Source of the DNA: Methylocystis rosea
GTDB taxonomy: Bacteria; Pseudomonadota; Alphaproteobacteria; Rhizobiales; Beijerinckiaceae
Direction of reading: 5' to 3'
Length of the DNA: 64,000 bases
Assembly: GCF_003855495.1 (NCBI RefSeq)
Contig: NZ_CP034086.1
Span: 3,199,501 to 3,263,500, forward strand
The notes below the pieces were generated by a model that made no database searches, was not told the origin of the DNA, and saw only the letters and a list, made by a program, of their open reading frames with translations. Shown here piece by piece: positions 9,961 through 54,754 of the stretch. How positions within the stretch are numbered: the stretch's first letter is position 1; the number at the start of each line of letters is the position of its first letter. The position numbers and the translations under genes were made by a program.

Positions 9961-11420
9961 GCGCGCCCATGTCTTCGGCTTTTCTCGCAGGCTTGCGGTT
10001 CGAGGCGCGCATGATGCGCCGTGACGGCGCCATCTGGTTCGCGCTGCTCGCGCTGGCGGGCGTCGCGCTTTTTGCGCTCGCAATGGGCGCCTCGCGCGTC
10101 GTGTCGCAACAGGCGGCGATCGCGGGCGCCCGCGCCGACGAGACGCAGCGCCTGACAAATCTCCAGAAAACTCTGGCGCAATTGCAGCAGGGTGAGACGC
10201 AGGGAAAGCCCGCGCCGGAGCCGCCGCCGTTCCGAGATCCGCGCAACGCCGCCTTCATGGGCGGAGGCCCCGCCGCGGCGGTCGCCGCGCTCGCGCCCGG
10301 GCCCTTGGCGCTCGTCGCCACCGGGCAGAGCGACCTGCTTCCGCCCGCCGTCCGGGTGACGACCGGCTCGAAGGACAGTTTTCTCTTCGCCGATGAGATC
10401 GACAATCCGGCGAATCTGATGTCAGGCGCGACCGATCTCGCCTTCGTGGTCGTCTTCGTCTATCCGCTGGTCATCCTGGCGATGGCCTTCAATCTGCTCG
10501 CCGGCGAGCGAGAGCAGGGAACGCTGTCGATGTCGCTGGCCTCGGCGCGCCGGCCCGCCGCCGCGCTCGCCGGCAAGCTGACGGCGCGCGTCGCCGCGCC
10601 GATCCTCGCGACGCTTCTCGCCGTCGCCGCTGGCGTCTGGATATTCGCCGGCTGGGAGCGGCTTGCGACGCCCGGCTTCGCAGTGCTGCTCATTGTCGTG
10701 CTGCTTTACGGTCTCTTCTGGGCGGCGCTGGCGGCCGCCGTCGACGGGCTCGGCCGGAGCTCCGCCTTTAACGCGCTGACGCTGATCGGCGCCTGGGTGG
10801 CGATCACCATGATCCTGCCGGCGGCGATCAACAGTATCGCCGGCTTCGCTCATCCCGCGCCGTCGCGAACCGACATGGTGCTCGCGGCGCGGGCGGCCTC
10901 GATCGACGCCGACCGCGCCCGCGACGCCTCGCTCGCGCGCTACGCTCAGGAACATGGCGACGCGGAAAAGCCGGCCGGCGGTCCGCAGGAGGCGACGTTG
11001 CGGCGTCTGGCGACGCAGGAGGCGGCGTTTCAGCGCGTCGAAGCGATCGTCGCCGAGCATGACGCGCAGCTTGCGCGCCAGCGCGATATGGCCGACCGGC
11101 TCGGCTATCTCTCGCCGGCCTATCTAACCTATCAGGCGCTCGCCGATATCGCCGGCTCGGGGGAGACGCGCTACCGCGCCTTTCTCGACCGTATCCGCGC
11201 CTTTCATCTCGACTGGCGCGAATTCTTCCTTTCGCGCGCCAAGGCCGGCGCCGCGCTGACGGCGCAGGATTACGCCGCAATGCCGAAATTCACGCAGGCG
11301 GATGAAGAATTGGTGGGGCCCGCCCCGGCGGGGCTCGCCGGCCCGCTCATCGGCGTCGCGCTGCCGATGCTGATACTCGCCGCGCTCGCCATGCGCGGCT
11401 ATCGCCGCTGCAGGATCTGA
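9957..11420 (+). CDS. ABC-2 type permease (DUF3526 family), second subunit
   Basis: A 487-residue protein, paralogous in architecture to the preceding permease: N-terminal helix (FALLALAGVALFAL), large extracytoplasmic loop, the GEREQGTLSMSLAS coupling motif, five more hydrophobic segments, a long soluble loop, and a last helix before a short basic tail. The ATG overlaps the previous stop. No binding protein or outer-membrane partner follows, so the cargo cannot be named. Confidence 0.85.
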   Translation: MSAPMSSAFLAGLRFEARMMRRDGAIWFALLALAGVALFALAMGASRVVSQQAAIAGARADETQRLTNLQKTLAQLQQGETQGKPAPEPPPFRDPRNAAFMGGGPAAAVAALAPGPLALVATGQSDLLPPAVRVTTGSKDSFLFADEIDNPANLMSGATDLAFVVVFVYPLVILAMAFNLLAGEREQGTLSMSLASARRPAAALAGKLTARVAAPILATLLAVAAGVWIFAGWERLATPGFAVLLIVVLLYGLFWAALAAAVDGLGRSSAFNALTLIGAWVAITMILPAAINSIAGFAHPAPSRTDMVLAARAASIDADRARDASLARYAQEHGDAEKPAGGPQEATLRRLATQEAAFQRVEAIVAEHDAQLARQRDMADRLGYLSPAYLTYQALADIAGSGETRYRAFLDRIRAFHLDWREFFLSRAKAGAALTAQDYAAMPKFTQADEELVGPAPAGLAGPLIGVALPMLILAALAMRGYRRCRI

Positions 11421-45046: not shown

Positions 45047-45838
45047 CTATTCCACCGCCAAAATGACGTCCGCAGCGTCGAAGGTCGCCAGCGCGGCGTC
45101 CCCTTCTTTCAGTCCCATGTCTTCAACGAGGTGGCGCGGCGTCACCGCGGTCATCGTCTTTCCGAAACCGACGTCGAGCAGGATTTCGCTATTGCGTTCG
45201 GCGTCGATCCGCTGCGTGACTATGCCGCGGAAGCAATTGCGCTGCAGCGGCGTCGCGTCCCCCGCTGGCGCCAGATTGACGAAGGACGCCTTGATCAGCG
45301 CCAGCGCCTTGCGCCCGCGAGAAAGGCCCAGCCGCTCGGCTGATTCATTGGTGACGATCGCCAGGATCGTATCCTTTTCCGACACGCGCAGCGTCACTTC
45401 GACGTCGACCGGCCACTTCTTGACCTGAGTCACTTCGGCGCGAAAAACATTGCGCGCGGAAATTGTCATGCCCGTGGTCCACAGCAGAAAATCCTCGGCG
45501 CCCGCGAGACCCTCTTCGGCGATCGTCTCGGAGATACGCGCAAGTTTCTCTTCGAGGCGGTGGAAGGTGGCGATCAGCCGACGCCCTTCCTCCGTCACCT
45601 CGGCGCCGCCGCCGGTTCGGCCGCCAGCCTTGGTGATGAAGGCGGGCGTCGGCAAGAGATTGTTGATCGCGTTCACCGCGTCCCATGCGGCCTTGTAGCT
45701 GAAGCCGACGGCCTTGGCGGCCTTCGTAATGCTGCCGTGAAGGGCGACGGCCTCAAGAAGCTTCACGCGGTCGCGCCCAACGAGGAGTCGGCCCTCGCTA
45801 CGCAGCGCCAGTGAAGCATCGATCTTGCCTTCGGCCAT
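45047..45838 (-). CDS. modE: ModE molybdate-responsive regulator
   Basis: A 263-residue ModE: N-terminal winged helix-turn-helix (LLEAVALHGSITKAAKAVGFSYKAAWDAVNAINN, TGGGAEVTEEG) and two C-terminal Mop/TOBE domains (SARNVFRAEVTQVKKW, ALIKASFVNLAPAG ... NCFRGIVTQRID). Molybdate or tungstate binding to the Mop pair lets the dimer bind palindromic operators, usually repressing uptake genes. It follows the XdhC/YqeB-like gene on the same strand. No modABC is nearby; two candidate operators lie in the divergent intergenic region (46986 and 47104). Confidence 0.93.
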   Translation of the reverse strand: MAEGKIDASLALRSEGRLLVGRDRVKLLEAVALHGSITKAAKAVGFSYKAAWDAVNAINNLLPTPAFITKAGGRTGGGAEVTEEGRRLIATFHRLEEKLARISETIAEEGLAGAEDFLLWTTGMTISARNVFRAEVTQVKKWPVDVEVTLRVSEKDTILAIVTNESAERLGLSRGRKALALIKASFVNLAPAGDATPLQRNCFRGIVTQRIDAERNSEILLDVGFGKTMTAVTPRHLVEDMGLKEGDAALATFDAADVILAVE

Positions 45839-45913
45839 GTCCTGCGTCCCGCCTCATCGCCCGGATACAGGGCAAGACGGCCGGAAGCAACCGCGGCTAA
45901 GATGAATGTTCGG

Positions 45914-46783
45914 TTAGTGGAGCGTTACTCTCGTCCGCGATGGTCTCCGTCCCCCCGCCGGCGACTCAGCGATCGCCCTGACCACCGCCTCGGCGATGGC
46001 GCGGCCGCGTTCGTCGGTTCCGGTCCAGTTCGAGGCGCGTCCGCGCGGATCGATTTCCACGAGCTTGACGCCCCGCGCCCCATGGACTCCGTCACGCGCG
46101 ATCCCGCGCAGGAAGCCGTCCATCGGCGCCTGGATGGGAAGGCCGTCGAGTCGGCCGAGCAGATAATCCCTGAAAACCCGAGCGCCGATGTCGAGCGGCG
46201 TCCGCCAGACGCCGTCGCGCGCCGCGTAGACGAAACGCTCCTTGCCGACGCCGCCGAGCACGCGCGCGACGCCGTCTGAAGGCAGCGTGGCGCCGTTTTC
46301 GAGCAGTTCGCCCGTGTGCGCCGGATGAGTCTCGATCGCCACGTCGCAGTTCCAGCCCGCCGTGAAGTTTGGACCCAGCCCGATCACGAGACCTGCGATC
46401 CCGCGCAGATCCGGCGTGACGCGGTGCTTTTGCATGCGCGCGTCGATGAGAACGTCGGGCGCGCGCAGGGGGATGAGATCCGTCAAGGGCAGAGGCGAAA
46501 CGGCGACATGTCCCGGCCGGGACAAGACGTCGACCACATCCAGAGTCGTTTGCGTCAGATCGGCGACCACGCCGTCGACTTCGGCGCGATCTCCATAAAG
46601 CGCGTCGTGGAAGGCCATGCCCCGTCGGATGACCGGCGGGTATGCGTCATGGCTGAGAACCACGCGGCGCCGCTCCCATGTCAATCGCGCCGCGACCGCG
46701 GAGGCGATCTCATTCGTGCCGAGGATGATGACGAAATGCTCACTGCAGTCGGAGAGGAATTCTTTTGCTGAAAAGCCTGGCAT
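45914..46783 (-). CDS. XdhC/YqeB (EF2563)-like molybdenum-enzyme maturation protein
   Basis: A 289-residue protein with an N-terminal Rossmann-like start (HFVIILGTNEIASAVAARL), PDVLIDARMQK, VIGLGPNFTAGWNCDVAIET, and a C-terminal half with DGVWRTPLDIG and APMDGFLRGIARDGV. The pattern is that of EF2563/YqeB proteins linked to molybdenum hydroxylase maturation. The start ATG at 46783 has GGAGG upstream, but both are locked inside a long stem-loop (46764-46812). It shares an apparent ModE-controlled upstream region with the TonB operon. Confidence 0.8.
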   Translation of the reverse strand: MPGFSAKEFLSDCSEHFVIILGTNEIASAVAARLTWERRRVVLSHDAYPPVIRRGMAFHDALYGDRAEVDGVVADLTQTTLDVVDVLSRPGHVAVSPLPLTDLIPLRAPDVLIDARMQKHRVTPDLRGIAGLVIGLGPNFTAGWNCDVAIETHPAHTGELLENGATLPSDGVARVLGGVGKERFVYAARDGVWRTPLDIGARVFRDYLLGRLDGLPIQAPMDGFLRGIARDGVHGARGVKLVEIDPRGRASNWTGTDERGRAIAEAVVRAIAESPAGGRRPSRTRVTLH

Positions 46784-46812
46784 GGGGCGCCCTCCGGCGC
46801 CTTTTCAGCAAA
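46764..46812 (-). promoter_or_regulatory. stem-loop enclosing the ribosome site and start codon
   Basis: TTTGCTGAAAAG (46801-46812 read on the reverse strand) pairs perfectly with CTTTTCAGCAAA at codons 4-7, a 12-bp stem. The 25-base loop holds GCGCC-GGAG-GGCGC, itself a small hairpin with the Shine-Dalgarno in its loop, and the ATG. The structure should hinder translation unless opened by a protein, a small RNA or heat. Confidence 0.65.
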
Positions 46813-46985
46813 TGACGCGCCAAGTCGCACGCCTTTGTTTTGCAGGGAATTCGGCGCCGGCCAGGCGGCGGAGAATCCTCGTTTCGCGCATTTTGTATTG
46901 AAGCCGACAATACGAACAAACAGCAAACGGCGCTAAAATTTGTCCGTTCATCATGTTGAAATATATAACTATTTTTGATGAACAA

Positions 46986-47010
46986 CGCTATGTCATCTGA
47001 AAACATATCA
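46986..47010. promoter_or_regulatory. candidate ModE operator, reverse-strand side
   Basis: CGC-TATGT-N9-ACATA-TCA, the inverted repeat halves at 46989-46993 and 47003-47007. It lies about 205 bases upstream of the XdhC-like start and could make that operon, and modE with it, autoregulated. Same half-sites and spacing as the box at 47104. Confidence 0.6.
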
Positions 47011-47072
47011 ATATCGATCTTTCCATACAGTTTTGCACATGTACTGATCATAAGCTGCTTAAAGTTCTAACA

Positions 47073-47101
47073 TTGACTTTTGTACCGCTCGTTTGTAGTC
47101 A
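47073..47101 (+). promoter_or_regulatory. candidate sigma-70 promoter of the TonB operon
   Basis: TTGACT at 47073 and TAGTCA at 47096 with a 17-base spacer; the -35 is good, the -10 poor. The ModE-like box starts three bases later, where a bound repressor would cover the transcription start. The region is much more AT-rich than the genes around it. Confidence 0.45.
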
Positions 47102-47103
47102 AG

Positions 47104-47128
47104 CACTATGTAAGCTAACTACATAACG
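47104..47128. promoter_or_regulatory. candidate ModE operator, TonB operon side
   Basis: CAC-TATGT-N9-ACATA-ACG, with halves at 47107-47111 and 47121-47125. The right half TACATAACG matches the E. coli ModE box as I recall it. It lies only 12 bases before the ATG of the binding-protein gene. Confidence 0.68.
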
Positions 47129-47140
47129 GTTATCGATCAC

Positions 47141-48442
47141 ATGATCCGCGCTGTCGCCGTCGCTGCATTCGCAAGCTTTTTCAGCATTCTATGCACTCCG
47201 CCGTCTGGCGCGTCGGCCAATGAGACGATCACCGTCGTCACGAGCTTTCCTGAAGAACTGACGACCCGTTACGAGCGGGAGTTCGAGCGCGGCCACCCGC
47301 AAATCCACGTTCGATTCGTCTGGAAGCAGTCCCGCGACGCGCTTGTCGAACTCGCCAAGCCCGAACAGGGCGGTGCGGATGTCTATTGGGCGCCGTCGCC
47401 GGCGAATTTCGCGCTGCTGCGCGACCGTGGCGCGTTTCGCAAGATAACGGTCGACCGCGCTGCGCTTCCCGGCCGGCTGGGCGCGCAGCAATTGTCCGAT
47501 CCCGCTGGCCTCTACGAAGCCTATGATGTCGCCGGCTATGGGTTCGTCGCGAATCCAAGCGCGCTGGCGGCGGCCGGCCTTTCCGCGCCGCGACGCTGGC
47601 GCGACCTCGCGTCGCCAGAATATGCGCGCCAGCTCGCCATGCCGATCGCCTCAAAGGTCGGCTTTTCGCCTGCGCTCTATGACATCGTTCTGCAGAGCGA
47701 AGGTTGGGACGCAGGTTGGCGACTTCTTAGCGAGATGGCCGGCGAGGCGACGCTGCTCGATTCCGGAGTCGCGCCGACGGCCGCTGTGCGAGAAGGCAAA
47801 GCGGCGCTCGCGCTGACGATCGATTTCTTTGCAGAGATCGCCAGAGCCAATGGCGCGGCGGTCGAGATGATCTATCCCGAGCGCACCGCGTTTCTGCCCG
47901 CCCATGTCGCGATGACCACCGGCTCCGAGCATGTCGCCGCCGCGCAGGCGTTCATCGACTTCCTGCTGTCGACGGACGGCCAGCGACTGATGATGGAGCG
48001 CGACAGCCGCCGGCATCCGGCGCGGCCCGACGCCTATCAAAGCGCGCCGCAGGGCTTTGCCGATCCCTTTGCGCTGCCCGACTCGACCCTCCTTGTTTAT
48101 GATTCTGAGATCGGCGGCCGCCGGCCGCCGCTGATCACGCTGCTCTTCGATCTCGCGATCGTCGAAGGCCATGCCGAGAGCGCCGAACTGTGGCGCAAGA
48201 TTCACGACGCCGAGAAAAAATTCGCCGGCAATGCGAAAGCCATGGCGGCGCTGGGCGAAGCGAAGAGACTCGCCGGCTTCATTCCGGTTTCCGAAAGCGA
48301 CGCGGGCACAAGAACCTTCCTCGAGCGCTTCGCGCGTCGCGACGCCATCGATCCGCAGCACCTCGCACAATGGCGCGAGGAGATCGGCGCGGCGCGGCGA
48401 CAGGCGCGTGACCTCGTCAAAAGCCTGGAGCCGGCGCCATGA
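47141..48442 (+). CDS. periplasmic solute-binding protein, orphan
   Basis: A 433-residue protein with a signal peptide (cleavage near GASA-NE) and a type-2 periplasmic binding fold of the Fe/thiamine/oxyanion kind: TITVVTSFPEELTTRYE, ADVYWAPSPANFALL, and AFIDFLLSTDGQRLM near residue 270. About 120 extra helical residues follow the binding fold. No ABC permease or ATPase is present in the operon. There is no clear ribosome site and an in-frame TAA lies 30 bases upstream, so the ATG at 47141 is the only start; the mRNA may be nearly leaderless. Its stop overlaps the next gene (ATGA). Confidence 0.85.
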   Translation: MIRAVAVAAFASFFSILCTPPSGASANETITVVTSFPEELTTRYEREFERGHPQIHVRFVWKQSRDALVELAKPEQGGADVYWAPSPANFALLRDRGAFRKITVDRAALPGRLGAQQLSDPAGLYEAYDVAGYGFVANPSALAAAGLSAPRRWRDLASPEYARQLAMPIASKVGFSPALYDIVLQSEGWDAGWRLLSEMAGEATLLDSGVAPTAAVREGKAALALTIDFFAEIARANGAAVEMIYPERTAFLPAHVAMTTGSEHVAAAQAFIDFLLSTDGQRLMMERDSRRHPARPDAYQSAPQGFADPFALPDSTLLVYDSEIGGRRPPLITLLFDLAIVEGHAESAELWRKIHDAEKKFAGNAKAMAALGEAKRLAGFIPVSESDAGTRTFLERFARRDAIDPQHLAQWREEIGAARRQARDLVKSLEPAP

Positions 48443-49737
48443 AACGCTTCGGACTCCTCCTATGCGCCGCGATGCTTGCGGGCGCAGCGCGCTACGAGAC
48501 GAGCGGCCCCGATACCGAAGCCTTCATCCAGCCGATTGAAGGATTGGACGGCGAACATGCCGCAAGCTTTCGCAAGGGCAGCGGCATCTTCCGCCAGGCC
48601 TGGGTCATCGGACCGTCGCAGGATCATCCCGACTTCGTCGGTCTTGGTCCGTTCTACAACCGGCTTTCCTGCATCGCCTGCCACGTCAAGAATGGTCGGG
48701 GCGCCGCGCCAGACAGCGAAAATGGCGTCGCGCGCACGATGGCGGCGAGGCTGAGCGTCGAGGGAAAGGACGCGCATGGCGGACCGCGCGTTCATCCTGA
48801 ATACGGCGCTCAGCTCAATCCCGAAGGCGTTCCCGGCGTTGCTGGCGAAGGCCAGGCGGTCGTCGAATACGCCGATTTCGATGTGGCGCTCTCTGATGGC
48901 GCGACAGTAAGGCTTCGTCGGCCGACGCTCTCCTTCCGCAATCTCGCTTACGGTTCGCTCGGGCCCGAGACGAAGACGTCGCTGCGCAATGCGCCGCCGG
49001 TCTTCGGCCTGGGTTTGCTGGAGTCGGTGGCCGACGCCGAAATTCTCGCCGGCGCGGGCAGACCGAATTTCGTCTTCAGCGTTGAGACCGGGCAGAGAAC
49101 GCTCGGCCGCTTCGGACTCAAAGCCAATCAGCCCAATCTCAAGCAGCAGATCGCCAACGCCTTCGTCGAAGACATCGGCATAACCTCGTCGCTGTTTCCT
49201 GTCGAGAGCTGCGCGCCGACTCGCAGCGAATGCTATCGCGGCGCTTCGACGCCGGAATTGACCGAAGCCCAACTCGACGCCGTCGTCAATTACATCCGCG
49301 CGCTTGCGCCGCCAGCCAGGCGCAATCTCGACGACCCGCGCGTCAAGGACGGCGAAGTTCTGTTCCATGACATCGGCTGTTCGAACTGCCATCGCGATGC
49401 GCTGCATGTCGCGGACTTCTCGCTGCAGCCCGCGCTCAACGGCGTCGAGATCCATCCCTACACCGACCTTCTGCTGCACGACATGGGCGACGGGCTCGCC
49501 GACGGCCGCGAAGATTTCGAGGCTGGTCCAAGGGACTGGCGAACGCCGCCGCTGTGGGGATTGGGCCTCGCGGGCAAAGGCGGAGACGGCGCCGATTTTC
49601 TGCACGACGGCAGGGCGCGCACGCTCGTCGAGGCGATCCTCTGGCACGGCGGCGAAGCGCAGTCGTCCGCCGACGCCTTCCGCAATCTTCCCGAACCCCA
49701 GCGCGACGCGCTGCTCGCTTTCCTCAACTCTCTCTGA
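48439..49737 (+). CDS. di-heme c-type cytochrome (DUF1111 thiol oxidoreductase-like)
   Basis: A 432-residue exported protein with a short signal sequence and two heme-binding motifs, CIACH near residue 79 and CSNCH near 315. HDMGDGLADG, WRTPPLWGLG and FLHDGRARTLVEAILWHGGEA are the conserved end of the DUF1111/di-heme peroxidase-like family, often beside metal uptake genes. It may oxidise or release metal or ligand in the periplasm. Overlaps the binding-protein stop by four bases. Confidence 0.88.
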   Translation: MKRFGLLLCAAMLAGAARYETSGPDTEAFIQPIEGLDGEHAASFRKGSGIFRQAWVIGPSQDHPDFVGLGPFYNRLSCIACHVKNGRGAAPDSENGVARTMAARLSVEGKDAHGGPRVHPEYGAQLNPEGVPGVAGEGQAVVEYADFDVALSDGATVRLRRPTLSFRNLAYGSLGPETKTSLRNAPPVFGLGLLESVADAEILAGAGRPNFVFSVETGQRTLGRFGLKANQPNLKQQIANAFVEDIGITSSLFPVESCAPTRSECYRGASTPELTEAQLDAVVNYIRALAPPARRNLDDPRVKDGEVLFHDIGCSNCHRDALHVADFSLQPALNGVEIHPYTDLLLHDMGDGLADGREDFEAGPRDWRTPPLWGLGLAGKGGDGADFLHDGRARTLVEAILWHGGEAQSSADAFRNLPEPQRDALLAFLNSL

Positions 49738-49754
49738 TCTCCATGGGGGCAATG

Positions 49755-51962
49755 ATGACCAGGCTGCTGACGACAACGGCGATTTCAGGCGGCGTTCTTC
49801 TCTCGCTATCAGCGCCAATGAGCGCGCAGACGCCGCTGCCGCCGATCGAGGTGAACGCGCCCAAAGCCTTCGAACTCGGCCAGATCAAAGTCGGCGCACG
49901 CCGGCTCGGAGTCCCGACGCGCGCTGCAGAGCCCGGCGACGGCGCAGGCGAACCCCGCTCGGCGCAAGCGGTTCCATCGGAAAAGATCGACAATGGTCCG
50001 ACGCCCAGTCAGCACACCGACGCCTTCGGCGGCTACACCATCACCAACAGACAGATGGAGACCTTTGCGCGGCCAACGCTCGACAGCGCGGTCAATATCG
50101 CGCCGGGCGTCAACAGTCAGATCTCCGGCAATTCACGCAATGAGCAAAATATTTATGTGCGCGGGTTCGATCGCTGGCAGGTGCCGCTCACCGTCGACGG
50201 CGTTCGCGTTTATCTGCCGGTCGACAACAGACTCGATTTCGCGCGCTTTCTCACCGCCGACATCGCCGAAGTGCAAATCGCCAAGGGCTATGTCTCGGTG
50301 CTCGACGGTCCGGGCGGCATGGGCGGCCAGATCAATCTGGTGACGCGCAGACCCACCCGAGAGATTGAAGCCGAATGGCGCACGCGATTCGACTTTGGTC
50401 GAGACGGCACATTCCTTGGACCAATGACCTACGGCTTCGTCGGCACGAAAAAGGACATGTATTACGCGCAGCTCAGCGGCACTTTTCAGAACTACGACGG
50501 CTGGATGCTGCCCGCGAGCTATCGCTCGACGCTCGCTCAGGGACCGGGCATGCGCAGTCAATCCTATACGCAAGACTACAATATCAACGCGCGCGTGGGC
50601 GTGACGCCCAACGCGACCGACGAATATTCCCTAAGCTTCAGCCGCCAAGAGGGACAAAAGGGCGCACCGCTTCATACGACCGATCCCATCGCCACGCAGC
50701 GCTTCTGGCGATGGCCGTATTGGCGAGTCCAAAACCTCTATTTCCTGTCGAGAACTCAGCTCAATGAAGCCGCCTATGTGAAGACGCGCGGCTATTGGAG
50801 CAAATTCGACAATTCGCTGGTCTCCTATGACGATCCTTCCTTCATCAATCAGTCGCTGCCTCGATCCTTCAACAGCGCCTATGCGGATTATGCGCTCGGC
50901 GCAGAGGTTGAGGCGGGCGCGCAGATCGGCGACATCGACACGCTGAAAGCGCTGTTCTTCTATCGCCTCGACAATCATTCCGAGTGGCAGGAGAATTTCG
51001 GGCAGAATTTTCGCGGCACGCGTTCGGGCTGCGTGTCCAGCGTGCCGTGCTTCACTCAGCCGCTGATCTCCAGCATAGAAGATACCTATTCAGCGGCCGT
51101 GGAGAACACATTCTATCCGAGGCAGGACATCGATATCGTTGCCGGCTTCAGCTATGATTGGCGGCATCTGCGCCAGGCGCAAGGCTTTGCAGTTCCGCAG
51201 GGCGTCATTGACTATCGGCCCATCGACGTGCAGGCGCCGAACTATCAGGGCGCGGCGATCTGGCGCTATAACGACACCGACCGCATTTATTTCAACGGCT
51301 CGAGCCGAACCCGCTATCCGACGCTTTTCGAGCGTTTCAGCACGCGCTTTGGCGGCGCGACGTCCAATCCCACGCTCATGCCCGAACGCGCTGCCAATTT
51401 CGATCTCGGCTGGTCGAGTCTTATTGCGCCGGGAATGCGGGTGTCGGTCGACGTCTTCTACAGCCTTGTCGACAAACTCATCCAAAGCGTGCCTGCGCCG
51501 CAGTTCGGCGCCAATGTCACACAGTCGCAGAATGTCGGCGGCGGGAGGTTCTGGGGCGCTGAAATCTCGGCCGACTATTTCGTACGCGAGGATTTCTCGC
51601 TCGGCGGCAATGTCACCTTCATTCGGCGCCGGGTCTATTCGCCGTCGATCCTCAATTTTCAGCCGACGGGCGTGCCCGACTTCAAAATGTTTCTTTACGC
51701 CGGATACCGCCCCATTCCCCAGCTGACCTTGACGCCAAGCCTGGAAATCGCGGACGCTCGCTGGACGACCATTACAAACGGCAATTGGTATTATCGGACC
51801 GGCGCTTATTGTCTGACGAACTTCAACGCCGATTATACGCCGGGCGACAACATCAAATTCTCGGCGGGCGTGCGCAACGCGTTCGATGACTACTATGTGC
51901 TCGCCGATGGCTATCCCTCTCCGGGCCGCACCTTCTATCTCGCGTCGAAAGTGAACTTTTGA
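49755..51962 (+). CDS. TonB-dependent outer-membrane receptor
   Basis: A 735-residue receptor. Signal peptide to about residue 26, a 110-residue N-terminal extension, then plug (TITNRQMETFARPTLDSAVN, NIYVRGFDRWQVPLTVDG, VLDGPGGMGGQINLVTRRP) and a 22-strand-type barrel rich in aromatic residues ending FYLASKVNF with the terminal Phe needed for barrel assembly. GGGGG precedes ATGATG; the frame opens far upstream inside the cytochrome gene. Third gene of the apparently ModE-controlled operon; substrate may be molybdate/tungstate or a chelate, by inference only. Confidence 0.88.
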   Translation: MTRLLTTTAISGGVLLSLSAPMSAQTPLPPIEVNAPKAFELGQIKVGARRLGVPTRAAEPGDGAGEPRSAQAVPSEKIDNGPTPSQHTDAFGGYTITNRQMETFARPTLDSAVNIAPGVNSQISGNSRNEQNIYVRGFDRWQVPLTVDGVRVYLPVDNRLDFARFLTADIAEVQIAKGYVSVLDGPGGMGGQINLVTRRPTREIEAEWRTRFDFGRDGTFLGPMTYGFVGTKKDMYYAQLSGTFQNYDGWMLPASYRSTLAQGPGMRSQSYTQDYNINARVGVTPNATDEYSLSFSRQEGQKGAPLHTTDPIATQRFWRWPYWRVQNLYFLSRTQLNEAAYVKTRGYWSKFDNSLVSYDDPSFINQSLPRSFNSAYADYALGAEVEAGAQIGDIDTLKALFFYRLDNHSEWQENFGQNFRGTRSGCVSSVPCFTQPLISSIEDTYSAAVENTFYPRQDIDIVAGFSYDWRHLRQAQGFAVPQGVIDYRPIDVQAPNYQGAAIWRYNDTDRIYFNGSSRTRYPTLFERFSTRFGGATSNPTLMPERAANFDLGWSSLIAPGMRVSVDVFYSLVDKLIQSVPAPQFGANVTQSQNVGGGRFWGAEISADYFVREDFSLGGNVTFIRRRVYSPSILNFQPTGVPDFKMFLYAGYRPIPQLTLTPSLEIADARWTTITNGNWYYRTGAYCLTNFNADYTPGDNIKFSAGVRNAFDDYYVLADGYPSPGRTFYLASKVNF

Positions 51963-52024: not shown

Positions 52025-52960
52025 CTATTTCAACTTCGCGTCCCATGTCGGCGAATCCGGCGCGCGAAAATCAAAGTCCCACGCGAATCGCCGGATGAGA
52101 TTGTAGCCGATTAGGAAAGAAACATCGCGGCCAAGCGCGGCGCGCAAGGCGCCGAAGTCATAGGAGATCGCATAGAGGTCGCGCAGGACGCGACCTTCGC
52201 CCAGGTCAAGCGACTTGATCTTGTAGACTTGCAAGGAAATGCGTTTTCCGCCGACGCCGCTTGCGCGGGCTTTGGCCTTCACCGCCGTGAACAGCCCCTT
52301 GTGCTTGCGTATGAACTGCTGATCGACGGCCGAGACTTCCGCGCCCGTGTCGAACAGGCCGACCGCCGCCGTGGCGCCCGTGTCGAACAGGCCGACCGCC
52401 GCCGTGGCGCCCAGGCGCAGGTCGACGCCGACAAGACGCCCATCGGGTCCCAGCCGCCGAAACGGCTTCGGGCGGCCGCTCGCCGTCGCGTCGCCGAAAA
52501 AGACGAGTTCGCGGCGATCGATATCGAGGCTGAATCGTGCGCCTTTGAAAAAATCGAGCCCCAAAAGGTCGTCAGCATCGCCAGGCGGACATCGCGTGAG
52601 TTGATATTTCGCTCGCGCGATGTTGTTTCCTTGATCGGCGACGAGTTCGACATTCTGCGCTTCAACGTCGTCACAGCGCATTGTCGCGCCTGAGGCTCCC
52701 GTGGAGAGGCTTGCGCCGAGCACCGGCAGGTCCTTGTTCCAGGGCGCCAGCCTGATGCGCGTGCTCGACGCCCCCGTGTCAAGCCGCATGTTTCCCATGA
52801 CATTGCCGATGCGGACCGGCAGGTAGATGCGCCCGCCGGAATATTGATCTTCGCTCAAGGTCAGCGGAATGACGGAACGGCTTCTCTCGGCGCCGACGGC
52901 GGCGACCGAAAACAACAGCGCTGCAAAGAGCACGAACGCCGTCGCTCGAAAAAATTTCAT
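52025..52960 (-). CDS. exported retropepsin-like aspartyl protease
   Basis: A 311-residue protein with a signal peptide (MKFFRATAFVLFAALLFSVAA) and two aspartyl-protease halves. The first has MRLDTGASST; the second has GLFDTGATAAVGLFDTGAEVSAVD. The second active-site loop is duplicated by a 33-bp tandem repeat (52343-52375 and 52376-52408), so it has two adjacent DTGA motifs. The start at 52960 follows GGAAG; upstream frame is spurious. Convergent with the TonB receptor. Confidence 0.82.
   Translation of the reverse strand: MKFFRATAFVLFAALLFSVAAVGAERSRSVIPLTLSEDQYSGGRIYLPVRIGNVMGNMRLDTGASSTRIRLAPWNKDLPVLGASLSTGASGATMRCDDVEAQNVELVADQGNNIARAKYQLTRCPPGDADDLLGLDFFKGARFSLDIDRRELVFFGDATASGRPKPFRRLGPDGRLVGVDLRLGATAAVGLFDTGATAAVGLFDTGAEVSAVDQQFIRKHKGLFTAVKAKARASGVGGKRISLQVYKIKSLDLGEGRVLRDLYAISYDFGALRAALGRDVSFLIGYNLIRRFAWDFDFRAPDSPTWDAKLK
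52343..52408 (-). repeat. 33-bp exact tandem duplication in the protease active-site loop
   Basis: Two identical 33-base units encode LFDTGATAAVG twice. The reading frame is kept. Exact identity suggests a recent slip or an assembly artefact. Confidence 0.9.
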
Positions 52961-53260
52961 GAACTGCTTCCTGCCGCCGAACACGCCTTCAGCCGCTAAG
53001 AAACGCGTCTTGAGCTTCCCGCGCAAGTTCCGCGCCTTTTCCCTTGTAGCGAGGCGAGTAATGGAGGGGCACGAGCCGCTTCGCGAATTCAAAGGTCGTC
53101 GAGGGCAAGAGGCGCTACGGTCCGGAATGCGGCCAATTCCATTCTGCCGCCTGGACCGCATAAGGGGTAAGCAACCGTTCGCGAATGCCACGTCCTGCTT
53201 GCCGCTGTGAGCCGACGTCTGTTGGCTTGGCGGAGGTCGATGCGAAACACTTGATATGCA

Positions 53261-53317
53261 TGGTACCGCCACCCCGGCTCGAACGGGGGACCCCCAGATC
53301 CCCAATCCGATTCGTCA
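53261..53317 (-). tRNA. tRNA 3'-half remnant, probable attachment site
   Basis: On the reverse strand the T arm is perfect (CCCCG-TTCGAGC-CGGGG), followed by acceptor strand TGGCGGT, A and CCA at 53261. Upstream, an anticodon loop TTGGGGA with a wobbly stem can be drawn, but no D arm or matching ACCGCCA acceptor strand exists. It is therefore a partial gene, as left by integrase-mediated insertion, not a functional tRNA. The integrase gene begins about 150 bases away. Confidence 0.65.
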
Positions 53318-53464
53318 CATTTTCTCAAATTTTATGAAATGATATAATGCATTGATATAAAGTCAAAAACTAAATATTTTTGTTTTCTCTTGATTTCCAT
53401 TCAGAGCCGTCATTTTCTCAATTCTGCTTACCGAGTGCTTACCGGAAATCGAGAGAAATCATCC

Positions 53465-54754
53465 ATGCCCAGCGGCAGAATCACCAAGCGCGCCGTCGAC
53501 GCCTTAACATGCGATCGAGGCGCAGATCGCTGCTTCTTTTGGGATGACGCGCTTGCCGGATTTGGCGTCACGGCCTTCCCCAGCGGCCGAAAAATCTACA
53601 TCGCGCAGTTTCGCAAGGACGGGCGCTCACGCCGAATCAGCATCGGGGAGCACGGGCGGTTGACCCCGGACGAAGCGCGCTCGCAGGCGAAGATCATACT
53701 CGGCGCCGTCGAGACGGGCGCGGACCCGATTGCTGACCGCAGGACCGCTCGGGCCGTAAGGACCTTCAGGGAAGTCGCCAATGATTGGATGAGCCAGCAC
53801 GTGACGCCGAAGCGCAAGCCGCGAACGGCGTCGGAGTATCAGCGCATCCTGAATTCACATGTTTTTCCGGCGATAGGATCGAAGCGGATCTGCGAATTGC
53901 GTAGGGCTGATCTCACGCGCCTCCATGCGAGGATGGCCGCGACCCCGCGGGCGGCAAACCATATGCTTGCGACGATCTCGGCGATTTGGAACTGGGCGGC
54001 GCGCCGCGAAGAAGTTGTGTTCGCCGCCAACCCTGTGAGAGGGATCGAGCGCTATGCCGAGAAACGGCGGGAACGCTTTCTGACGAGCGCAGAGTTGGCG
54101 CGTCTCGGCGATGCGCTGCGAGACGCCGAATCGATCGGCCTTCCATGGGCGGTCGATGAAAACGGACCTCACGCAAAGCATCTCGCGAAGCCTGACAAAC
54201 GCCGGGTGAAGCTCGATCCTTTCGCCATCGCGGCGATTCGCCTCTTACTTCTCACTGGCGCTCGCCTGCGCGAGATTCTCAACGCCAGATGGTCAGAGGT
54301 CGATTTGGAACGCGGCGTTATCTTCCTTTCCGACTCCAAGACTGGCAGGAAGCCGATCTATTTGTCGGCGGCGGCGCAGGCGGTGCTCGCCGACCTGCCG
54401 CGCATAGAAGACTGTCCGCATATCATCGCTGGCGCAAAAGAAGGCGCTCCTCGATCAGATCTGAAAAAGCCTTGGGCGGCGGTCACGCGCGCCTCCGGCC
54501 TCGAGGGACTCCGTCTTCACGATCTTCGCCACAGCTTTGCGTCGTTTGGCGCGGGCGCCTCGCTCGGGCTTCCGATTATTGGCAAGCTCCTCGGTCACTC
54601 CCAAGCCGCGACCACCGCGCGCTATGCGCACCTGGACGTCGATCCGCTGCGGCGCGCCGTCGATACGATCGGGGCGACGATCTCCGCGGCAATGGACGGC
54701 GCGGAGCGCCGCGCCGCACAGCCGACACGGGAAACGCGCGGCGACCGCGCGTGA
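53465..54754 (+). CDS. int: tyrosine-type site-specific integrase (DUF4102 arm)
   Basis: A 429-residue integrase: N-terminal DUF4102-type DNA-binding arm (FWDDALAGFGVTAFPSGRKIY), a core-binding SAM-like domain, and the catalytic domain with Arg in LTGARLREIL, the HxxR box LHDLRHSFAS, and the Tyr nucleophile in TTARYAHLD. All catalytic residues are present. GAGAGA precedes the ATG at 53465; 25 codons of open frame lie upstream in AT-rich sequence. It marks the left part of an integrated element next to a tRNA remnant. Confidence 0.92.
   Translation: MPSGRITKRAVDALTCDRGADRCFFWDDALAGFGVTAFPSGRKIYIAQFRKDGRSRRISIGEHGRLTPDEARSQAKIILGAVETGADPIADRRTARAVRTFREVANDWMSQHVTPKRKPRTASEYQRILNSHVFPAIGSKRICELRRADLTRLHARMAATPRAANHMLATISAIWNWAARREEVVFAANPVRGIERYAEKRRERFLTSAELARLGDALRDAESIGLPWAVDENGPHAKHLAKPDKRRVKLDPFAIAAIRLLLLTGARLREILNARWSEVDLERGVIFLSDSKTGRKPIYLSAAAQAVLADLPRIEDCPHIIAGAKEGAPRSDLKKPWAAVTRASGLEGLRLHDLRHSFASFGAGASLGLPIIGKLLGHSQAATTARYAHLDVDPLRRAVDTIGATISAAMDGAERRAAQPTRETRGDRA

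Follow-up and report, generated by a model that had tools for sequence, protein, structure and literature searches.

A TonB-dependent operon with conserved ModE-type operators in Methylocystis, a candidate system for scavenging molybdenum

To our knowledge, little has been established about how molybdenum, the metal of the main nitrogenase, passes the outer membrane under scarcity or when organic matter binds it. Azotobacter is known for catechol siderophores that bind molybdenum, and operons that join an imelysin to a di-haem protein of the DUF1111 family (DHOR) are thought to serve iron. The closest described regulatory systems are ModE with its modA operator in E. coli and the ModE-type proteins MopA and MopB of R. 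capsulatus, which are reported to repress anfA (PMC6925177, PMC7294313). Among the matches listed in the openly licensed literature, none presented a ModE-controlled TonB receptor in its title or in the opening of its abstract.

We analysed a window of 64,000 nucleotides of the Methylocystis rosea chromosome, in which positions 45047-51962 hold modE and a YqeB-like gene, transcribed away from an operon for a periplasmic solute-binding protein (PBP), a DHOR and a TonB-dependent outer-membrane receptor (TBDR); gene calls and domain matches agree on this arrangement, which the first-pass annotation had described. The modE gene (45047..45838, minus strand) encodes a molybdate-responsive regulator with an HTH and two Mop/TOBE domains (Pfam TOBE, 92.3 bits in two stretches; NCBIfam Mop, 105.4 bits, cut-off 55; ModE_repress, 95.5 bits, just below its cut-off of 98.5). 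The protein aligns with 1b9m, the E. coli ModE, across residues 9-261 at E 3e-27 and has the LysR-type HTH and di-Mop architecture of the family, while the E. coli equivalog model PRK10676 is not reached (144 vs 369 bits). The YqeB/XdhC-like molybdoenzyme maturation gene (45914..46783, minus strand) scores 158.1 bits with NCBIfam TIGR03309, short of the cut-off of 220, and seems not to be essential to the module, because it was not found in the corresponding loci of four relatives (L010, L011, L013 and L014). The plus strand carries PBP (47141..48442; SBP_bac_6, 88.8 bits), DHOR (48439..49737; PF06537, 267.3 bits) and TBDR (49752..51962), with a 4-base overlap between the first two genes and a gap of 14 bases before the third. 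TBDR has the plug and barrel of a TonB-dependent transporter, both above cut-off (PF07715, 55.4 bits; PF00593, 81 bits), and falls outside the siderophore-receptor model TonB-siderophor (TIGR01783; 108.3 bits, cut-off 223.5). No Rfam family or tRNA was detected in the window.

Between the divergent genes lie two inverted repeats, both exact matches to TATGT-N9-ACATA as first reported. The predicted ModE-type operator 1, CGCTATGTCATCTGAAAACATATCA, spans 46986..47010 (exact repeat core 46989-47007), and the predicted operator 2, CACTATGTAAGCTAACTACATAACG, spans 47104..47128 (core 47107-47125) and ends 12 bases before the PBP start codon; each has a spacer of 9, and the half-sites are those of the E. 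coli modA operator, whose spacer is 8. When one mismatch was allowed, shuffled versions of the window gave on average 0.14 repeat matches, and two were reached in 1 of 100 shuffles. The 4.2 Mb genome holds three exact repeats, two of them here, against one for a reversed control pattern, and the extended motif CGNTATRT-N9-AYATANCG with one mismatch gave 3 sites vs 3 control sites, so that genome-wide counts alone are weak proof and it is position and conservation that matter. Across 12 related upstream regions, mean conservation is 0.893 in the half-sites of operator 1 vs 0.676 in its spacer, and 0.917 vs 0.806 for operator 2. The same comparison brings out TTGACT at 47073..47078 on the plus strand (mean conservation 0.986, five of six bases invariant), a probable −35 element of the operon promoter, which would place operator 2 near the transcription start. 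A consensus scanner predicted no sigma-70 promoter on the plus strand of 46780-47160 and did not pick up TTGACT. A role of operator 1 in serving the YqeB-like gene was rejected, since this gene was not found in L010, L013 and L014, where a degenerate site persists 118 bases from operator 2. We also rejected the bare TATGT-N9-ACATA repeat as an exclusive mark of ModE; in Methylocystis, TATGTTATAACATAACATA sites also lie ahead of a ZnuD-like receptor and are presumably Zur sites.

The scan of related genomes showed the operator to be conserved within Methylocystis, in Azospirillum, in one genome from the same order and in another alphaproteobacterial family; a box scoring 12/14 or more stands upstream of orthologous operons in 18 of the 20 distinct loci tested. 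These loci were hand-picked: from the 13 close relatives L004-L016 only L011, L013, L014 and L015 were taken, together with the window, and the others were compared separately except L012, whose contig ends inside the PBP gene; scores for L156, L157, L159 and L160 were taken with in-frame start codons. Scores of 13-14 were reached by none of 400 or 1000 shuffles, and the best spacer was 9 in 11 of the 14 loci scanned, 8 in two Azospirillum loci and an 8/9 tie in one. No convincing box was found in Beijerinckia (L017; 11/14, reached in 66 of 400 shuffles) or in a bog MAG (L030/L164; 10/14, reached in 260 and 240 of 400). In three genomes (G782, G783 and G797), the box scores 13-14/14 although modE is not adjacent. 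A survey of 39 Methylocystis genomes found an exact site at most 134 bases upstream of the PBP match in 14 of the 22 genomes with PBP, a count that includes one fragment with a stop (G793) and one PBP in two pieces (G802); such sites near PBP account for 21 of all 55 exact sites. ModE occurs in all 22 of these genomes vs 10 of the 17 without PBP, as raw counts uncorrected for kinship and genome incompleteness. The locus and genome surveys are not independent, because many of the loci come from the same genomes; L015 is equated with G782 on the basis of position. Regulation of the operon by ModE, as predicted from this conservation of the operator upstream of orthologous operons, is well supported at the level of sequence. 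As for breadth, PBP was matched at E 1e-75 in 2 of the 398 genomes of a phylum sample, its own included; DHOR was matched in 82 of the 385 genomes of a class sample, and among 30 DHOR loci viewed PBP lies within the roughly 4.3 kb inspected only at our own locus and at L055 (G043).

The neighbourhoods of the box tie it to molybdenum and nitrogenase genes. In two relatives (L156 and L157), the operon lies beside a ModE-HTH gene, two NifQ genes, NifX and a full ModE, with several boxes, and the same neighbourhood adds ModA in L156 and Mop in L157. A molybdenum role, as originally proposed, is supported by these NifQ, NifX, ModA and Mop neighbours; the cargo itself may be molybdate, tungstate, a molybdenum chelate or another metal required under molybdenum starvation. 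Three other placements of the same box serve as positive controls: ahead of the NifA-family activator of an anf cluster (L186), ahead of VnfD and of a NifA-family activator (L183), and, in L182, in the gap separating YqeB-like from formate dehydrogenase genes. The alternative-nitrogenase genes preceded by the box belong to two relatives, G784 with vnf genes and G693 with the anf activator, and each of these genomes has PBP and TBDR as well. Further 12-14/14 sites have no visible molybdenum link (L117, L119, L129, L170, L180, L182:5355 and L185). Azospirillum, L112 and L159 have a TonB gene next to the operon.

PBP has an extra C-terminal helical part (structure model pLDDT 76.2), and its nearest solved folds are of the sugar-phosphate AfuA type, P5PA and the ferric FbpA type. 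The adjacent tyrosine pair of the FbpA-type protein 1y4t, which we take to be its iron ligands, faces a gap in the PBP profile in a weak alignment, and FbpA-type iron ligands are thus not apparent. No permease or ATPase gene lies beside PBP in the window's operon or in the annotated Azospirillum loci, which sets the operon apart from binding-protein-dependent ABC importers; PBP relatives elsewhere in the order share 27-34% identity, and two of the three viewed (L114 and L116) adjoin permease and ATPase genes. The locus does lack ModABC, as first noted, but two modABC sets are present in the genome, so that the organism as a whole does not lack ModABC. On both C1 and C2, modA and modC exceed the cut-off, and C2 has another modA; modB exceeds it on C2 and is assigned by position on C1. 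The 1300 bases before the chromosomal modA contain no box above 10/14 with spacers of 8 and 9. Permease matches in the genome are of the sulfate type (by neighbourhood), of the ModB type, and a Pot-type pair without an adjacent solute-binding protein, and none of the PhnU2 type is above cut-off.

DHOR has two CxxCH motifs, at residues 78-82 and 314-318; in an alignment of 25 sequences, C78, C81, H82 and C314 are invariant and C317 and H318 nearly so. Its AlphaFold model has a pLDDT of 54.3, and comparison with solved structures gave no meaningful match. Three relatives (L113, L159 and L160) retain the box, PBP and TBDR, with DHOR absent from the 14-17 kb read, which weakens the periplasmic redox step once suggested and makes it optional. 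An imelysin is the partner of DHOR in six of the seven other DHOR loci with neighbours scanned; at our locus, PBP is beside DHOR and there is no imelysin. A DUF1111 protein is counted among the iron proteins of Dinoroseobacter (PMC8007024), and a DUF1111 protein is listed in a chromate-stress table (PMC2996968).

We consider it on balance probable, judging from sequence, that this is a ModE-repressed TonB operon, induced by molybdenum starvation, that scavenges molybdenum, probably in chelated form. Because the control sites recur before the relatives' operons, some of them beside nitrogenase-cofactor genes, the operon is probably induced when molybdenum is scarce in order to scavenge it. With ample molybdate, molybdenum-loaded ModE would sit on both N9 palindromes and shut the operon off, since operator 2 falls downstream of the presumed −35 element and ahead of the PBP start codon. 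Under scarcity, ModE would release the DNA, and PBP, DHOR and TBDR would be produced. The TonB-driven TBDR would then bring a scarce molybdenum species, most likely a chelate with an organic ligand, across the outer membrane, and PBP would bind it in the periplasm; DHOR may be a dispensable accessory, possibly weakening the hold of the ligand by a redox step, and the cargo would reach the cytoplasm via ModABC or another ABC transporter. A bolder version, conceivable yet doubtful, would give alphaproteobacterial nitrogen fixers a complete route for chelated molybdenum, in which TBDR imports a molybdophore complex, the helically extended PBP captures it, DHOR frees the metal by redox chemistry and ModABC or an orphan Pot-type ABC system imports it, with ModE co-controlling nitrogenase-cofactor and alternative-nitrogenase genes and perhaps an outer-membrane porin. 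The locus supplies a candidate receptor, binding protein and operator for methanotrophs and Azospirillum, and is relevant to the way in which methanotrophs and diazotrophs manage when molybdenum is low. Furthermore, a ModE operator with a 9-base spacer is indicated in several alphaproteobacteria, and the regulon thus becomes searchable.

The chief alternative to a molybdenum cargo is vanadium or iron: the operon would be ModE-repressed all the same, and a vanadium or iron chelate would be taken up for V- or Fe-nitrogenase or other molybdenum-free enzymes under molybdenum shortage. The boxes before the vnf genes and the anf activator in genomes with PBP and TBDR fit this reading, as do the closeness of the PBP fold to ferric-binding proteins and the pairing of DHOR with imelysin in six of the seven other loci scanned, but the adjoining Mo-nitrogenase cofactor genes and ModA or Mop in L156 and L157, together with the gap opposite the 1y4t tyrosines, argue against it, and we regard it as unlikely. 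It seems quite improbable that PBP, in a ModE-controlled operon, is a sensor or store without onward transport while TBDR imports a molybdenum-free ligand, such as an apo-chelator or a cofactor precursor. The missing ABC genes beside PBP and the missing PhnU2-type permease would suit such a role, yet the two ModABC sets and the Pot-type system without its own binding protein could take the cargo over.

We give still less weight to the operon serving iron, copper or lanthanide uptake under another regulator, with modE a mere neighbour and the palindromes the sites of another protein, which is very improbable. Such TonB receptors usually serve iron, in line with the sub-threshold siderophore-type match of TBDR, and the bare repeat recurs before the ZnuD-like receptor; however, the flanks set those sites (11/14) apart from the exact operon sites (12-14/14), the box is kept where modE is not adjacent and is found before alternative-nitrogenase genes, and its half-sites equal those of the E. 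coli modA operator.

Several known systems come close to this locus. With E. coli ModE and its modA operator it has regulator domains and half-sites in common, and the R. capsulatus MopA/MopB system has the anf activator as a target, as in G693. Unlike in both of these ModE systems, the target here is an outer-membrane TonB operon, and the spacer is 9 in 11 of the 14 loci scanned, where the E. coli modA operator has 8. TonB-dependent siderophore and metallophore uptake shares the TBDR and a periplasmic binding protein, and in some relatives the adjoining TonB gene, whereas the ModE-type operator, the di-haem protein and the lack of adjoining ABC genes set this locus apart. Imelysin-DHOR operons have the same DHOR family (39-48% identity in L020-L039), and in one of them (L033) a TBDR lies one gene further on, but they carry imelysin where this operon has a solute-binding protein, and the ModE boxes and modE are found here. 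The ABC systems for 2-aminoethylphosphonate and those of the FbpA and AfuA types share the PBP fold, which here comes without permease, ATPase or an apparent FbpA tyrosine pair. Finally, ModABC and R. capsulatus MorABC are reported to be molybdenum-repressed, and L156 has ModA next to the operon; the two transporters are, on the other hand, inner-membrane ABC systems, to which this operon would add an outer-membrane step.

The five genes of the ModE/TonB island lie where the first-pass annotation had placed them, as gene calls and domain searches bore out. On the minus strand, modE (45047-45838) and a YqeB-like gene (45914-46783) diverge from plus-strand genes for a solute-binding protein (PBP, 47141-48442), a di-haem DUF1111 protein (DHOR, 48439-49737) and a TonB-dependent receptor (TBDR, 49752-51962). 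The PBP and DHOR reading frames overlap by 4 bases and TBDR starts 14 bases on; the three genes therefore look translationally coupled. The two TATGT-N9-ACATA palindromes proposed between the divergent arms, which are putative ModE sites, are exact (operator 1, 46986-47010; operator 2, 47104-47128), with 0.14 matches expected in the window when one mismatch is allowed, and a search of the 4.2 Mb genome gave three exact palindromes versus one for the reversed control pattern. Scored over the 14 positions of CGNTATRT half-sites, both operators reach 13/14. Across 12 upstream regions from Methylocystis and close kin, half-site conservation is 0.893 (site 1) and 0.917 (site 2) versus 0.676 and 0.806 for the spacers, with values outside the sites of 0.792 between them, 0.746 before site 1 and 0.667 before the start codon. 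The same 12 regions share a strongly conserved block between the operators (47035-47062, around TACTGATCA...CTGCTTAAAGTTC), possibly a second regulator's site. Near the 3′ side of the operon are an aspartyl-protease-like gene (52025-53305, minus strand), whose product tandemly repeats ATAAVGLFDTG, and a phage-type integrase gene (53390-54754, plus strand; PF00589, PF13356); a tRNA scan of the window found none.

Within the genus, PBP is present in 22 of 39 genomes (once as a fragment with a stop, once in two pieces) and at least one exact palindrome in 24 of 39. In fourteen of the 22 PBP genomes, the PBP match is preceded by an exact palindrome at a distance of at most 134 bases; of the 55 exact sites counted across the genus, 21 are of this kind. 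Upstream reads cover three of the other eight genomes (the remainder, under those handles, being G793, G794, G803, G805 and G806): G784 (L163) has a 14/14 box, G780 (L162) a 12/14 box and G791 (L164) none upstream of PBP. ModE lies within 4 kb of PBP in 18 of the 22; in G782, G783 and G797, it is far away on the same contig and the box still scores 13-14/14, while in G791 it is on a different contig, with none found in the 12 kb around PBP, and the box is absent too. Overall, ModE occurs in 22/22 PBP genomes versus 10/17 without PBP (Fisher p 0.0013, uncorrected for relatedness or incomplete genomes).

The predicted recurrence of the operator upstream of orthologous operons held in 18 of 20 distinct loci, part of them inside Methylocystis, at a box score of at least 12/14; the misses, Beijerinckia L017 and the bog MAG L030/L164, have no such box within the 450 bases searched. 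Boxes of 13-14/14 were never matched in 400 or 1000 shuffles, and those of 12/14 in 0 to 6 of 400. The best upstream spacer is 9 in 11 of 14 loci and 8 in two Azospirillum, the A. argentinense region carrying one box of each kind. In L017, a divergent TOBE-domain gene sits between the modE-like match and the operon side; in L018 (Azospirillum TSO22-1), PBP is directly preceded by a stretch resembling the ModE HTH. Gene order varies: PBP-DHOR-TBDR-TonB in Azospirillum and L112, PBP-TBDR in L113, TBDR-TonB-PBP in L159, TBDR, a gap and PBP in L160, and TBDR, a gap, PBP and DHOR in L156 and L157. In Azospirillum sp. TSH58 (L149:7926-9178), PBP is annotated as two ORFs and is probably broken. The system is rare in the genome samples searched, with PBP in 2/398 phylum-sample genomes at E 1e-75, own genome counted, and in 6/248 genomes around G043 at 1e-70; in its own order, 32/397 genomes match at 1e-40, with identity above 34% only in the own genome and G693. 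Regulation of the operon by ModE is very probable.

PBP belongs to the SBP_bac_6 family, and its predicted model (pLDDT 76) matches the AfuA, P5PA and FbpA folds, with an additional, mostly helical part at residues 322-429. No ABC genes adjoin it. Among three loci viewed for relatives in the order (27-34% identity), L114 and L116 adjoin permease and ATPase genes, and L115, by inspection, has sensor-kinase-like genes alongside. In the own genome, no permease of the PhnU2 type scores over cut-off; one set of Pot-type genes (ATPase-permease-permease) lacking an adjoining binding protein (L194:3367-6377, G000:C1:922866-925876), with no box above 9/14, is a possible but unproven partner. The closest relatives place the genome in Methylocystis, its DHOR being 97% identical to that of Methylocystis sp. 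L43. DHOR has two CxxCH motifs; an imelysin neighbour accompanies it in 6 of 7 other loci scanned, the neighbour in the seventh (L022) matching no family. A redox role for DHOR is a tentative suggestion, rather doubtful at present. TBDR has plug and barrel domains and scores under the siderophore-receptor cut-off. In three other Methylocystis loci (L132, L133, L135), TATGTTATAACATAACATA or its complement, probably a Zur box, lies upstream of a TonB receptor; the L132 receptor, the sole one scanned for family, is ZnuD-like.

In the mechanism that we propose, Mo-loaded ModE would repress the operon and Mo shortage would induce it; TBDR would then import a molybdenum species for capture by PBP, with DHOR assisting where present. 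Molybdenum is the somewhat favoured cargo, the main rival being vanadium or iron serving alternative nitrogenases. Downstream of the operon, L156 carries a ModE HTH-only gene, NifQ, an opposite-strand NifX-NifQ pair, full ModE and ModA; L157 shows two NifQ, NifX, Mop and full ModE along with a stretch resembling the ModE HTH, and several 12-14/14 boxes lie among these genes (NifX scores of 79.4 and 61.2 fall under the NCBIfam cut-off of 112). On C2, a further replicon of the own genome, a ModE HTH-only gene, an N8 box (12/14), a TauE-like gene directly downstream of it, two modA, modB and modC form an operon (L050:10137-10160 and 10186-10641). As positive controls for the box, sites in G784 (L183) lie 123-124 bases upstream of a NifA-family activator and of VnfD, and in G693 (L186) one precedes a NifA-family activator, a NifH-family gene and AnfD, which runs past the stretch end; G1306 has a site between NifE and a NifA-family gene. 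These NifA-family genes score under the NifA cut-off.

With one mismatch, eight genomes gave 31 sites versus 10 for the control pattern, unevenly split: own genome 3 versus 3, G784 9 versus 3, and G693, G1278 and G1306 summed 9 versus 0. One G784 site (L182) is flanked by a YqeB-like gene and formate dehydrogenase, and one in G783 lies (L173) ~310 bases upstream of an SBP_bac_11 protein of unassigned ligand; those at L117, L119, L129, L170, L180, L182:5355 and L185 have no visible Mo link, L117 and L129 falling within open frames. The own genome's third exact palindrome (14/14; L040:10919-10943, G000:C1:2142918-2142942) lies ~60 bases upstream of an 849-aa outer-membrane protein (Alginate_exp), possibly a ModE-controlled porin, and is kept before the orthologue in G785, G786, G787, G803, G807 and G813; hydrogenase-like genes were seen downstream by inspection.

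Under the same scoring scheme, the E. coli K-12 modA operator reaches 14/14 with a spacer of 8. In R. capsulatus, according to passages of two papers (PMC6925177, PMC7294313), the ModE-type MopA and MopB repress anfA via Mo-boxes. Titles and abstract openings among the matches listed, a coverage mostly outside subscription papers, describe no ModE-controlled TonB receptor. Both regulation by ModE and metal uptake through TonB-dependent systems are already known; it is their combination, not found in the literature within that scope, that appears to be new.
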